The notes: a model not told the origin generated them from the letters alone. Positions 20,047 to 24,011 are shown, numbered from the stretch's first letter. The stretch is DNA of 64,000 nt from Sorangium aterium (GCF_028368935.1 NZ_JAQNDK010000002.1:1488001-1552000), one strand, 5' to 3'. Numbers and translations are program-made.

Positions 20047-20955
20047 ATGCCCAGACGTCGTGGTCTCTTCCTTGCGTTCTCCCTTCTTTGCCCGGCGCTG
20101 CTCTCCGCCGGGTGTTCCCAGCCGATCGACGCTCCGGACGCGACCGCGTACGTGCTGCTCGATCCCGCGGCGCGCGCTCGCTGGACCGTGGCCAGCGACG
20201 GCTGGCAGGGCGCGCCGATCCTGCCGGTCGCCCTCGACGTGGAAGAGACGGCCGTGCTGCGCGGCCCGGAGGGCGCGGCGCGGATCGCGCTGCGCGGGGG
20301 CATGCTCGCGCACGTCCGCGGCGCCGAGGGCGAGATCCGATGGCTCGCGCTGGGGGAGGAGGCGCGGGACGACCGCCTGACGCTGCACGCGAGCAAGGCG
20401 GCCGCGGCGGCGCTCGCGGCGCTCGTCGGCGGCGAGATCTCCCGGCGTCGCGACGGCATGTGGACGCTCACGGCGCCGGACCTGCTGGAGCGTGGCTCTT
20501 TCCTCGATCCGCCCGAGGGCGTGATCGAGGCCCTGCCCGATGTGCGGCGCGATCCCGGCGATCCCGCCGCGTTCGCGCCTTCGGCGGCGCAGGACGCCCT
20601 GGACGCGCTCGCCGCGGTGCCGGCGGCCCCCAGAGGCGGCGCGCTGGAGCCTGGCGGCGCGGAGGCGGAGCTGGTCGGCCTCTACGCCGCGGGGCTGCGG
20701 ACGCTCCTCCTGGACGCGTCCGGGGGCTTCACGCTCGAGGACCGCTGCTCCGGGGAGGTGGTCGCGACAGGCCAGTACTCGGCCGCGGGCGATCGCGTGA
20801 TGCTGCGATCCGCGGGGGCAGCGCCGATCGTGCTGGGCCGGGATCGGGATAGGCTGGTGCAGGCAGGCGGGTCGGCCTTCGCGCCGCTCGCGCCCGAGCC
20901 CTCGGGGCGCGGCGAGACGGAGAGCGAGCTGCTCGGGAACGGCGGTGAGGAGTGA
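20047..20955 (+). CDS. Lipoprotein heading the DUF692 operon
   Basis: 302 residues from ATG 20047, with GGAGG 9 nt upstream. Lipoprotein signal GLFLAFSLLCPALLSAGC. The mature part opens with SQPIDAPDATAYVLLDPAARARW and continues as a beta-rich, acidic chain ending ESELLGNGGEE. No recognised domain. It is the first gene of four that follow each other with a 2-bp gap or 4-bp overlaps, so it probably works with the DUF692 enzyme, as a partner or as a target in the envelope. That role is inference. Confidence 0.75.
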   Translation: MPRRRGLFLAFSLLCPALLSAGCSQPIDAPDATAYVLLDPAARARWTVASDGWQGAPILPVALDVEETAVLRGPEGAARIALRGGMLAHVRGAEGEIRWLALGEEARDDRLTLHASKAAAAALAALVGGEISRRRDGMWTLTAPDLLERGSFLDPPEGVIEALPDVRRDPGDPAAFAPSAAQDALDALAAVPAAPRGGALEPGGAEAELVGLYAAGLRTLLLDASGGFTLEDRCSGEVVATGQYSAAGDRVMLRSAGAAPIVLGRDRDRLVQAGGSAFAPLAPEPSGRGETESELLGNGGEE

Positions 20956-20957
20956 CC

Positions 20958-21734
20958 ATGAAGCGCAGGCATTTGCTGGGAGCGACTGCAGCAGGGCTCG
21001 CGGCCACCGCGTGGCCCGCGTTCATCCGCGACGCGTTCGGCGACGGCGCCGCGTGCGACGAGAAGGGGACGCCAGCGGCGGCCTCGGGGTCGCTGGTCCA
21101 GGTCTCGGCCGCGTTCCGGCGCGCCCGGCAGGCGAACAGGGCGCTGCTCGTCTTCGTCATCCCTGCCGACGACAGCGCCAAGTGGGAGCGCGGCCACGCG
21201 TTCGGCGAGCTGCTCAACTTCGGCGCGGACGGGGATCTCGCCCCGCTCGCGGGCGTCGAGGTCGTCTGCGCGACCATGGCGGATCTGAAGAAGCTCGTGC
21301 CCGGCGCAGGCAGCGGGGAGCCGCTCCTGGTGGTGGTCGGGACCGACAAGGTGCCCGTCGCCGCGACGCAGCTCGACGTCGCGCTCCCGAGCTACGACGG
21401 AATGCGCCGCATGGCGGCCGGGGGCCGGGAGGAGCAGCTGAAGCACGACGAGCGCATCGCTGCGCAGCGGATCGGCGCGCTCGGGGCGCTGCTCCGGAAG
21501 GGCCTTGGCGCCGACGCGCGCGACGTGGAGGCCCGCGCCGCGAGCGTGCGCGCGCGGCTCGTGAAGGCGCCGCCCGCGGGCGCGCACTGGGCGATCGCGA
21601 GCGGCTGCGGGATCGACGTCGAGGGGGCCAAGGACAGCGGGCTCATGGCCTGCGGCATGGGGCACGTGCCCTCCAAGTCGCGGCGCTTCCTGTACTTCTT
21701 CTCGGTCGACGGGCGCGGGGCCTCCACGCGTTGA
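20958..21734 (+). CDS. Tat-exported protein with C-terminal Cys pair, in the DUF692 operon
   Basis: 258 residues from ATG 20958 (GAGGAG upstream). A twin-arginine signal (MKRRHLLGATAAGLAATAWP) leads to a mature region with a thioredoxin-like alternation (ALLVFVIPADDS, then EVVCATMADL, then PLLVVVGTD). The last 45 residues carry two Cys in SGCGIDV and MACGMGHVP followed by a hydrophobic stretch (RRFLYFFSV). Its stop overlaps the TTG start of the DUF692 gene. The Cys-bearing C-terminus makes it a candidate substrate of the enzyme, but this is not shown by the sequence alone. Confidence 0.75.
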   Translation: MKRRHLLGATAAGLAATAWPAFIRDAFGDGAACDEKGTPAAASGSLVQVSAAFRRARQANRALLVFVIPADDSAKWERGHAFGELLNFGADGDLAPLAGVEVVCATMADLKKLVPGAGSGEPLLVVVGTDKVPVAATQLDVALPSYDGMRRMAAGGREEQLKHDERIAAQRIGALGALLRKGLGADARDVEARAASVRARLVKAPPAGAHWAIASGCGIDVEGAKDSGLMACGMGHVPSKSRRFLYFFSVDGRGASTR

Positions 21735-22633
21735 TCCCGGTCGGCCTCACGCTCCAGCCCGACGCGGCGTTCCTCGACCTGCTGGCCGAGGTGATCCTGC
21801 GCGACGCCGACTACTACGAGGTGGCGCCCGAGACGCTCTGGCGCGTGCCGGACGCCGCCGAGGCCGATCTCCAGGAGAACGGCTTCCACCGCCGCTTCGC
21901 CGAGCTGGCGCGCCGGTCGGACCGGCCGTTCGTCGCCCACGGCGTCGGCTGGTCGCTCGGCGGCGCCTCGGCCGCCGACGCGGGCCGGCGCGCCCGCTGG
22001 CTCGCGGCCCTCCGGCGCGACCACGCGATCTTCCGCTTCCGCTGGTACACGGATCACCTGGGGATCAGCGCGCCCGCCGGCCTTTCGGCCGGGCTGCCGC
22101 TCCCGATGCCCATGAGCGCGCACGGCGCCGCGGTCGCCCGCCGCGCGCTCCGGGCGATGCAGGCCGTCGTCGAGGACGTCGGCGTCGAGAACAGCGTCAG
22201 CTACTTCGTGCTCGGCGATCCGCTGGACGAGCCGCGCTTCCTCGAGCGCATCCTGAGGGCGCCGCGGACGCACCTGCTGCTCGACCTGCACAACGTCCAC
22301 ACCATGGCGGAGAACTTCGGCTTCGATCCGGCCGAGTACGTGGCGCGGCTCGATCTCGCCCGGGTGATCGAGATCCACCTCTCCGGCGGCGGTCCGAGCG
22401 ATCCGGGCTGGCTGCCTTCGGGCCGGGTGTTGCGGCTCGACGGCCACGACGACGCGGTGCCGGAGCCGGTGTGGCGCCTCCTGGACGAGGTCGCGCCGCG
22501 CTGCCCGAACCTGCGCGGGGTGACCCTGGAGCGCATGGAGGGCACGGTGCACGGCGCGGGCGACGTGGCTGCCGTGCGGGAGGAGCTTCGCCGCGCGCGG
22601 CGCGCGCTCGGCAGGCGCGGGAGGCGCAGGTGA
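21731..22633 (+). CDS. DUF692 family multinuclear iron oxidative enzyme (MNIO, MbnB-like)
   Basis: 300 residues. A TTG at 21731 overlaps the previous stop (TTGA) and is the start that fits the family. All expected TIM-barrel metal-ligand positions are present: Glu30/Glu34 (YYEVAPE), His70 (AHGVGWSLGG), Asp108-His109, Glu153-Asn154, Asp185 and Asn188 (LDLHNVH), His216 (IHLSGG), Asp237-x-His239 (RLDGHDDAVPEPVW) and Glu267. Known members (MbnB, TglH, bufferin enzymes) oxidise Cys residues of peptides with di- or tri-iron centres, usually with a partner protein. The coupled next gene fits that partner. Function as a Cys-modifying enzyme is inferred from family knowledge. Confidence 0.9.
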   Translation: MIPVGLTLQPDAAFLDLLAEVILRDADYYEVAPETLWRVPDAAEADLQENGFHRRFAELARRSDRPFVAHGVGWSLGGASAADAGRRARWLAALRRDHAIFRFRWYTDHLGISAPAGLSAGLPLPMPMSAHGAAVARRALRAMQAVVEDVGVENSVSYFVLGDPLDEPRFLERILRAPRTHLLLDLHNVHTMAENFGFDPAEYVARLDLARVIEIHLSGGGPSDPGWLPSGRVLRLDGHDDAVPEPVWRLLDEVAPRCPNLRGVTLERMEGTVHGAGDVAAVREELRRARRALGRRGRRR

Positions 22634-23181
22634 CGCGCGCGGCCGGCGGCGGGGCGGCGGGGCGCGCGGCGCGTGGGAGGGCAGGGGAGGCCCGCGGCGG
22701 GGCAGCGGAGGCCCGCGGCGGGGCAGGGGAGGCCCGCGGCGGGGCAGGGGAGGCCCGCGGCAGGGCAGCGGAGGGCCCGGCGGCGCGGCCGGCGCGGCTG
22801 ACCGGGGCGCAGGCGCACGCGCGTTACGAAGCGCTCGTGGCGCGCGCGATGACCGCCGAGGATCCCGTGGCCGCGCTGCGCGCCGCGGCCGAGGATCCGG
22901 CGCTGCCGCCCGCGCTCCGGCGGGCGCTGCTCGGCGCGGACGAGGACGGCGTGAGGATGTCGGCGCTGCTCGTGGCGCGGCTGCGCTTCGAGCGGCTCCT
23001 GCGCGGCTCGCCCGAGGCCGAGGCGTGGTTCGACCGTGATCCTGCGGACTTCAGCGCCGCGTTCCGGCGCTACCACGCCGAGGTGCCGCCCACCGCGTTC
23101 TTCCCGCCGGGCGAGGCTCGCCTGTTCCGCCGCTGGATGGAGGCGCCCTCCGCGCCTACGCGCGCCCGACGGCCCCGATGA
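22630..23181 (+). CDS. Partner protein of the DUF692 enzyme (MbnC/DUF2063-like)
   Basis: 183 residues from GTG 22630, which overlaps the DUF692 stop (GTGA). The C-terminal 125 residues are helical and end FRRYHAEVPPTAFFPPGEARLFRRW, the pattern of partner proteins that follow DUF692 enzymes. In known systems the partner binds the substrate peptide for the iron enzyme. The first 50 residues are low complexity, built from GEARGGA heptads encoded by 21-bp tandem repeats, and are probably disordered. Partner role is inferred from position and C-terminal similarity. Confidence 0.75.
   Translation: MTRAAGGGAAGRAARGRAGEARGGAAEARGGAGEARGGAGEARGRAAEGPAARPARLTGAQAHARYEALVARAMTAEDPVAALRAAAEDPALPPALRRALLGADEDGVRMSALLVARLRFERLLRGSPEAEAWFDRDPADFSAAFRRYHAEVPPTAFFPPGEARLFRRWMEAPSAPTRARRPR
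22678..22780. repeat. 21-bp tandem repeats inside the partner gene
   Basis: About five copies of a 21-bp unit (GGGGCAGGGGAGGCCCGCGG plus C) lie in frame in the partner gene and encode GEARGGA heptads. Because the unit is a multiple of three, gain or loss of copies would keep the frame. Confidence 0.85.
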
Positions 23182-23186
23182 CCAGT

Positions 23187-23268
23187 GGGCGTCAGCAGCG
23201 CTTCCTCGCACCCCCGCCGGGCGTCAGCAGCGCTTCCCTCACCCCTGCCGGGTGTCAGCAGGGCCTCT
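23187..23268. repeat. 31/32-bp intergenic tandem repeat
   Basis: Two and a half copies of a unit starting GGGCGTCAGCAGCGCTTCC fill the gap between the DUF692 operon and the Uma2 gene (copies at 23187, 23219 and 23250). Function unknown; it follows the operon's last stop. Confidence 0.75.
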
Positions 23269-23315: not shown

Positions 23316-24011
23316 TCAGCCGCCTCGTCGGCGCAGCTCGGCCTCGAGCTCGGCGACTCGCCGCTCCGCCGTCGCGCGGGCGGCCTGCTCGGCCTCGGCG
23401 CGGCGTCGCTCCGCCTCCTCAGGGGTCGGGACGAGCTCCGCCCCGTCGGGGGTGCGGGCGAGCCGAAGCGCCGCCGGCTGGCCTGCGGCAGGGACGATGA
23501 CCCAGTGCAGATTGAGCACGGTGCACGGGCTGCGTTCCCCTTCGACGACGCGCTCGATCAGATCGTCGTCGATGCGATCCCAGACCCGCAGCCGCTCTCC
23601 TGACGCGGCGTCAGGATCGAACGCGACGAGCTCCAGCACGCCGAGCTCGTGGTACTTGCGGAGCTTGTCGGCCCACGTCTGCGGATCCGAGTCGTGCTCG
23701 CTCACGATCTCGACGGCGAGCTCAGGGGCACCACGCTCCCACGTCTTCCAGGAGCCGAACGGCGTGTCAGGGGTGCCGAGCCGGACAAAGGCGTCCGGCG
23801 CCAGACACCGGCTCGGATCCGACGCGGACCAGTAGACGAACTGGTCGGATCCGATCGACGCGCGATCCGCGAAGGTCTTGAGCACCACATAGAGCAGGGT
23901 CCTGATCTCGAGGTGGCGCTTGGTCTCCGGCACGAGGGCCTCTTCCGGGAAGTGGAGCGGGGAAGGCGCGCGAACGTGGCGGAGCCGGCGCGCGAGCGCG
24001 GCGTGCTGCAT
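23316..24011 (-). CDS. Uma2 family putative nuclease
   Basis: 231 residues from ATG 24011. Uma2 (DUF820) proteins have a PD-(D/E)xK restriction-like fold. The catalytic acids are visible in LAPDAFV and LAVEIVS, with the flanking KRHLEIRTLLYVVL helix. A C-terminal coiled-coil-like tail (EEAERRRAEAEQAARATAERR) is common in myxobacterial and cyanobacterial copies. No good ribosome binding site is visible. The biological role of the family is unsettled. Confidence 0.85.
   Translation of the reverse strand: MQHAALARRLRHVRAPSPLHFPEEALVPETKRHLEIRTLLYVVLKTFADRASIGSDQFVYWSASDPSRCLAPDAFVRLGTPDTPFGSWKTWERGAPELAVEIVSEHDSDPQTWADKLRKYHELGVLELVAFDPDAASGERLRVWDRIDDDLIERVVEGERSPCTVLNLHWVIVPAAGQPAALRLARTPDGAELVPTPEEAERRRAEAEQAARATAERRVAELEAELRRRGG

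Follow-up and report, generated by a model that had tools for sequence, protein, structure and literature searches.

The window analyzed here is a 64,000-nucleotide stretch of the Sorangium aterium genome (GCF_028368935.1 NZ_JAQNDK010000002.1:1488001-1552000), in which positions 20047-23181 hold a compact operon built around an MNIO (DUF692) enzyme. Four genes lie on the plus strand: one for a 302-residue lipoprotein with lipobox cysteine Cys23 (20047..20955), one for a 258-residue protein that begins with MKRRHLLG, carries a predicted twin-arginine translocation (Tat) signal and is the proposed substrate of the enzyme (P0002; 20958..21734), one for the MNIO enzyme itself (P0003; PF05114; 300 residues, TTG start; 21731..22633), and one for a 183-residue partner protein (P0004; 22630..23181). 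All four stand where an earlier, sequence-only reading had placed them, and the tight coupling that it described was confirmed: the lipoprotein and Tat protein genes are separated by 2 bp, and the following junctions are overlaps of TTGA (21731-21734) and GTGA (22630-22633). Gene order and TTG start recur in Sorangium cellulosum So0157-2, the closest named relative in the comparison, whose MNIO is 94% identical to that of the window. A promoter and terminator scan of the locus gave no signal above chance.

The predicted Tat signal region covers residues 1-28 (20958..21041, plus strand), and its arginine pair, R3 and R4, is kept in all 28 homologues that reach this region; among 30 aligned homologues, Tat-signal models match in 8 (PF10518) and 4 (TIGR01409). 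The window protein itself matches no Pfam, NCBIfam or PHROGs family. Its C-terminal tail (residues 203-258; 21564..21731, plus strand) is the proposed substrate region and reads G-x2-W-x4-GCG-x12-ACGMGHVP-x4-RFLYFF. In 30 homologues encoded beside an MNIO gene (alignment A2; mean column identity 29%), the corresponding consensus is G-x2-W-A-x3-GCG-x2-VE-...-[AG]CGMGHVP-x4-RFLYF. This C terminus had been described as cysteine-rich, which overstates the case, as the protein has just four cysteines, two of them conserved: C217 (codon 21606-21608, plus strand) and C232 (codon 21651-21653) alone are kept in all 30 linked homologues, at a spacing of 15-23 residues. The six invariant columns of the alignment (G208, W211, C217, C232, G233 and M234) all fall in the tail, and at least 90% identity is reached by 12 of the 46 tail columns and 4 of the 161 body columns (Fisher p 3.7e-6). 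Tail and body differ in this count of nearly invariant columns only; their mean column entropies are not different (Mann-Whitney p 0.16).

The operon is conserved across two phyla, Myxococcota and Planctomycetota. Of 145 relatives, 14 were found to have a homologue of the Tat protein, and by tblastn nearly all strong homologues adjoin MNIO and partner genes; the others are truncated by a contig or locus end. A Tat profile search of 379 Myxococcota genomes returned 14 clear positives and 2 chance matches. The MNIO clade of the window occurs in 12 of the same 379 genomes, every one of which has the Tat gene; two clear Tat-positives (G201 and G399) are missing from the 12, and in both the array lies at a contig end. 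Several other loci stop at contig edges, and at one (L082) the Tat gene is split over two frames. Across the regions compared, the order lipoprotein, Tat protein (one to four copies), MNIO, partner is repeated, with Tat-MNIO-partner as the constant core. Antisense shadow open reading frames aside, only these four genes recur around the locus in at least three lineages, and the same recurrence scan revealed no conserved short cysteine-containing reading frame or precursor around the orthologous operons. This recurrence is far beyond chance. The sequence-only reading had named two outcomes that would speak against it, a failure of the Tat and lipoprotein genes to co-occur with DUF692 elsewhere and a short precursor gene beside orthologous enzymes. 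Neither was observed, and its proposal that the Tat protein C terminus is the modified site remains, on sequence evidence, the favored assignment. Weak Tat matches at other Sorangium loci and in genomes G163 and G283 (L021-L023, L030-L032, L047 and L048) were treated as chance; no Tat-like gene was present at the four sites inspected (L021, L030, L047 and L048).

The tail, taken separately, is bound to the operon just as closely. All 31 matches (E <= 1e-13) that a profile of the tail alone found in 19 whole genomes lie within the operon, and any other match has E 0.02 or worse. Two genomes of one genus (G157 and G205) provide a natural comparison, as they carry Tat homologues both beside and away from an MNIO gene. 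The unlinked copies (L078:6846-7682 and L079:6704-7576) keep the signal, the body and the GSKW element, lack both tail cysteines and end with GSKWIIPATEG...VPYLSFD; the MNIO-linked copies in the same two genomes keep both tail cysteines. The unlinked copies sit on a long, weakly placed branch of the Tat tree. An open reading frame resembling a flavin adenine dinucleotide-dependent oxidoreductase, with a GLGTAGAAAAA start, lies near each of them.

Copy number also bears on the role of the Tat protein. Its gene recurs in lineage-specific tandem arrays, of two to four copies in Myxococcota and about nine at the planctomycete locus L169, with one MNIO each, and tandem duplication happened independently in several lineages (G201, G399, G213, G157/G205 and G104/G126). 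Arrays served by a single enzyme suit substrates rather than enzymes. In the L169 array (G725:C277, 8166-15497), one copy is without a recognizable tail and several tails have diverged.

These observations can be set against a reading in which the MNIO has its target in an unlinked peptide and the Tat protein is exported to serve as an accessory protein or as an enzyme itself, perhaps a redox protein similar to thioredoxin, with a disulfide or a metal site formed by the tail cysteines. In favor of this reading, the body of roughly 200 residues has a conserved core, and its predicted structure (predicted local distance difference test score, pLDDT, 43) gives Foldseek matches that are coherent, mostly to the thioredoxin fold, and insignificant (E 0.04 or worse); the model is poor because only three sequences were used as input. 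Direct alignment of the Tat profile with Escherichia coli thioredoxin by hhalign yielded nothing, and profiles of the Tat, lipoprotein and partner alignments had no significant match in the Protein Data Bank (PDB). Matches of the GCG element to Phe-tRNA ligase in the PDB search were set aside as chance. An accessory role is at odds with a tail that the profile never finds without an MNIO, with the lack of the tail cysteines in copies away from the enzyme, with an array of about nine copies next to a single enzyme, and with the CPPCGM versions described below, which bear a known ChrH substrate motif. We regard it as very unlikely. The Tat protein is, judged from these sequence patterns, very probably the substrate of the MNIO.

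The enzyme is a clear member of its family, scoring 122.4 bits against PF05114 (cut-off 25). All nine iron-ligand positions of TglH (H71, H107, E151, D184, N187, H216, D229, H231 and E258, which form two to three iron sites; PMC10880893) align to columns that are invariant in 18 relatives, with putative ligands in P0003 at H70, H109, E153, D185, N188, H216, D237, H239 and E267. The best NCBIfam match of P0003 is MNIO_ChrH (NF050165). In a tree built from own-genome paralogues and nine Myxococcota ChrH-like enzymes (NF050165 matches of 200-290 bits, not ChrH itself), with TglH and MbnB left out, the clade of the window groups with these ChrH-like enzymes at 100/100, apart from the six paralogues of its own genome. 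By sequence, P0003 is sister to ChrH/DybH, which on both the NCBIfam match and the tree are its relevant relatives in place of the methanobactin, 3-thiaglutamate and bufferin enzymes cited in the sequence-only reading. At five of the nine ChrH-like loci, precursors end with QCLACGMG, DCTACGRG or PCPACGRG or carry CxACGL near the end.

The 13.47-Mb, Sorangium-like host genome has seven DUF692 genes, and the six others (L001-L006) differ in their substrates. L001 adjoins a 149-residue precursor of the ECKGKGGCKG type with 10 cysteines and a DUF2063-like partner, L002 a 420-residue MopE/EF-hand/cytochrome-c protein, and L003 a 137-residue lipoprotein-like peptide ending with GHAGCGQGTCG.

The partner protein matches no Pfam, NCBIfam or PHROGs family, and DUF2063 was not found in its alignment by Pfam. 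Its predicted model is all-helical (pLDDT 76), and its conserved helical core (22807-23178, plus strand) resembles the helical bundle at the C terminus of ChrH-type MNIOs: the partner profile aligns with the ChrH C-terminal domain at an hhalign score of 26.1, compared with at most 17.1 for 200 column-shuffled profiles and 13.2 for the reversed one. Foldseek and VIA-align comparisons of the model gave no convincing match, and folds like those of TglI and DUF2063 remain compatible with it. In eight loci, partner and MNIO are fused as one reading frame, a good indication that the enzyme is what the partner acts on. The helical domain is fused in ChrH, and Melainabacteria encode it as an essential protein of its own, MelHc (PMC12636315). 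As one part of a joint explanation that we consider likely as a whole, the partner would be a separately encoded counterpart of the ChrH bundle, in the manner of MelHc. An in-frame 21/42-bp GC-rich tandem repeat (22654..22789, plus strand) occupies the variable N-terminal part of the gene, outside the conserved core; the So0157-2 protein is shorter at this place.

The lipoprotein likewise matches no Pfam, NCBIfam or PHROGs family. Its homologue was not detected in G036 or G328, in which Tat protein and MNIO remain, and it is therefore taken as accessory; the four-member operon of the sequence-only reading thus stands for Tat, MNIO and partner and falls back to an optional fourth member for the lipoprotein, which would act as an extracytoplasmic companion, possibly in the envelope. 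A case for the lipoprotein, rather than the Tat protein, as the target of modification could rest on its leading position in the operon and on the existence of MNIO-modified lipoproteins (DAG-RiPPs; PMC12636315). The lipobox Cys23 is, however, the only invariant cysteine among its homologues, and the Tat protein and MNIO persist where it is not detected, making this alternative exceedingly improbable.

The relation of the window tail to known MNIO substrates emerges from Planctomycetota, where close enzyme relatives (E <= 1e-43) were found in 15 of 294 genomes, with a clear gap below. The ChrH motif is CPxCGxG; the window tail (GCG-x12-ACGMG) has kept CGMG and lost CPxC. Arranged on the enzyme tree, the planctomycete loci connect the two forms. 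Short precursors ending with CPACGRG and CPGCGRG (L181 and L182) belong to enzymes within the ChrH-like clade. Basal enzymes (L177, L179 and L180) are accompanied by protein-sized substrates in which PCPPCGMA lies some 20-25 residues from the C terminus; at L179 and L180 these have RR signals and the Tat protein body. Proteins with CP[PT]CGM and with GCG..CG[MR] occur together beside one enzyme at L174 and L175, and the crown enzyme clade that includes the window (100/99) has only the displaced GCG..CGM form. Because of this continuum, the window tail is read as a ChrH motif with a moved first cysteine rather than as an unrelated cysteine pair. The L174 and L175 operons are suited to asking whether one enzyme accepts both motif forms. 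At L178, the frame upstream of the MNIO resembles a tetratricopeptide repeat (TPR) protein without a cysteine tail, recalling the TPR substrate MelA1.

Based on these data, a simple model would suggest that the operon combines a divergent ChrH/DybH-type MNIO, a helical substrate-engaging partner and a Tat-exported protein whose tail is the substrate, and we consider this explanation likely. To the computed results, namely the operon, its co-occurrence pattern, the tail conservation, the enzyme clade, the partner similarity and the motif continuum, analogy with the family adds a modification step and its place relative to export. Enzyme and partner would grip the P0002 tail in the cytoplasm, and the iron enzyme would oxidatively rearrange it at C232-G-M. 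ChrH-type enzymes carry out a four-electron oxidation at the second cysteine of CPxCGxG, the product of which is a hydantoin, with the Met and Gly amide NH signals lost and the thiol of the first cysteine attached to the former beta carbon (PMC12636315). By analogy, C217 would most likely be joined to the former C232, giving a hydantoin and a thiohemiaminal macrocycle of the ChrH/DybH kind whose ring would span some 15 residues or more, compared with the small CPxC ring. For DybH, CPACGMG appended to green fluorescent protein suffices for modification, and one extra ring residue is tolerated (PMC12636315). Folded and modified, P0002 would then be exported through Tat. Since Tat takes cargo only after cytoplasmic folding, this route would solve the premature-export problem of Sec-borne MNIO substrates, whose escape from export before modification is a question raised in PMC12452194. 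The exact product and the biological role are the least certain elements of the model.

A different chemistry on the same tail can be envisaged, in which each cysteine is converted separately, as in bufferins and captophorins, to a 5-thiooxazole or similar copper ligand, so that the displaced pair chelates metal and no ring is formed. Both tail cysteines precede a glycine, as in EGKCG repeats (PMC13097082), their spacing of 15-23 residues is unlike the known macrocycle, and the paralogue L001 of the same genome serves an EGKCG-like precursor. The enzyme, by contrast, groups at 100/100 with the ChrH-like enzymes, away from its own-genome paralogues; the C-G-M element and the CPPCGM intermediates indicate the ChrH motif; and no EGKCG repeat is present in the window Tat protein. 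Pfam detects none of the bufferin/captophorin hallmarks (DUF2282, Buf2 or the DUF2063 partner) in the four window proteins or in the partner and Tat alignments. Thiooxazole formation is accordingly judged unlikely, although less so than the accessory-protein and lipoprotein alternatives.

Several points weigh against the favored model. P0003 scores 113 bits against NF050165, for which the equivalog cut-off is 600, and for this reason it is not called a chryseobasin maturase. The match between partner and ChrH domain is weak (hhalign probability 40%), and the comparison provided by the unlinked Tat copies represents a single event in one genus. The putative Tat assignment draws on the conserved arginine pair and on model matches in the 8 and 4 of 30 members given above, and at two loci (L176 and L178) the enzyme is present without a recognized tail in cis. 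The chemistry ascribed to enzyme and tail would follow from family and sequence; as all characterized ChrH-type substrates have a CPxC spacing that the window tail does not share, the same product is not assured, and C217 could be separately modified or serve as a ligand. A more far-reaching version, in which a ChrH-type branch exchanged short CPxCGxG peptides for folded proteins exported by Tat, cross-linking cysteines 15-23 residues apart into a large thiohemiaminal/hydantoin macrocycle with up to about nine paralogous substrates per enzyme, is put forward tentatively, at somewhat short of an even chance.

Beyond the operon, a 31-bp repeat of 2.4 copies (GGGCGTCAGCAGCGCTTCC...) lies at 23187-23261, immediately after the operon stop, and a gene for a putative Uma2-family endonuclease (PF05685) follows on the opposite strand (23316-24011, minus strand).

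If the tail is modified as proposed, MNIO chemistry would extend from peptides to an exported protein family in two phyla, and the Tat route, restricted to folded cargo, would account naturally for modification ahead of export. The series from CPxC in peptides through CPPC in a protein and both forms in one operon to displaced cysteines would represent a stepwise takeover by a protein of a motif from ribosomally synthesized and post-translationally modified peptides (RiPPs), and the displaced-cysteine tails probe how far apart two cysteines may be for ChrH-type ring formation. A minimal three-gene system, together with the natural control of homologues lacking both MNIO and tail cysteines, makes the model directly testable.

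The sequence-only reading had taken a protein-sized exported MNIO substrate to be new, a claim that is superseded by MelA1, a 34-kDa protein with a secretion signal that is modified at a C-terminal CPACGMG (PMC12636315), and by the protein substrates proposed in PMC12452194. No published account of such a system was found among papers linking MNIO or DUF692 enzymes with twin-arginine export, myxobacteria or Sorangium, in a search that subscription papers and supplements lay beyond, and Tat export, displaced cysteines and tandem arrays of MNIO substrates appear to be new. The MelA1-MelH-MelHc system of Melainabacteria resembles the window in its protein-sized substrate with an export signal, its C-terminal CGMG motif and its separately encoded helical bundle. 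MelA1, however, is a TPR protein ending exactly in CPACGMG, and its secretion signal is not said to be of the Tat type, whereas the window substrate has a predicted Tat signal, a different body, two cysteines spaced 15 apart and a further 24 residues beyond CGM, and operons of its type add tandem arrays and a lipoprotein gene. The chryseobasin-type RiPPs, ChrA-ChrH and DybA-DybH, share the MNIO sister group (100/100, with ChrH-like rows), the C-G-M-G motif core and the helical bundle partner; their precursors are short and carry CPxCGxG in place of GCG-x12-ACGMGH, their helical domain is fused, and the hallmark of the ChrH subfamily product is a shift of -4 or +10 Da with a hydantoin and thiohemiaminal macrocycle. 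ArlA of Archangium, a ChrH substrate from Myxococcota with an embedded CPACGMMM (PMC12636315), also has a myxobacterial host and a motif away from the very C terminus, but is peptide-sized and keeps the CPxC spacing. The TIGR04222 membrane proteins found with MNIOs (PMC12452194) are likewise proposed protein-sized substrates with C-terminal cysteines; unlike the window protein, they are integral to the membrane, have several cysteines and a different signature, and come mostly from Actinomycetota. Bufferins and captophorins (Buf1, Buf2, EGKCG), similar systems of which occur in the host genome as the separate paralogues L001 and L003, share a signal-peptide-bearing substrate and the order precursor, MNIO, partner, and are set apart from the window operon by a Sec signal, a DUF2063 partner and a different MNIO branch.

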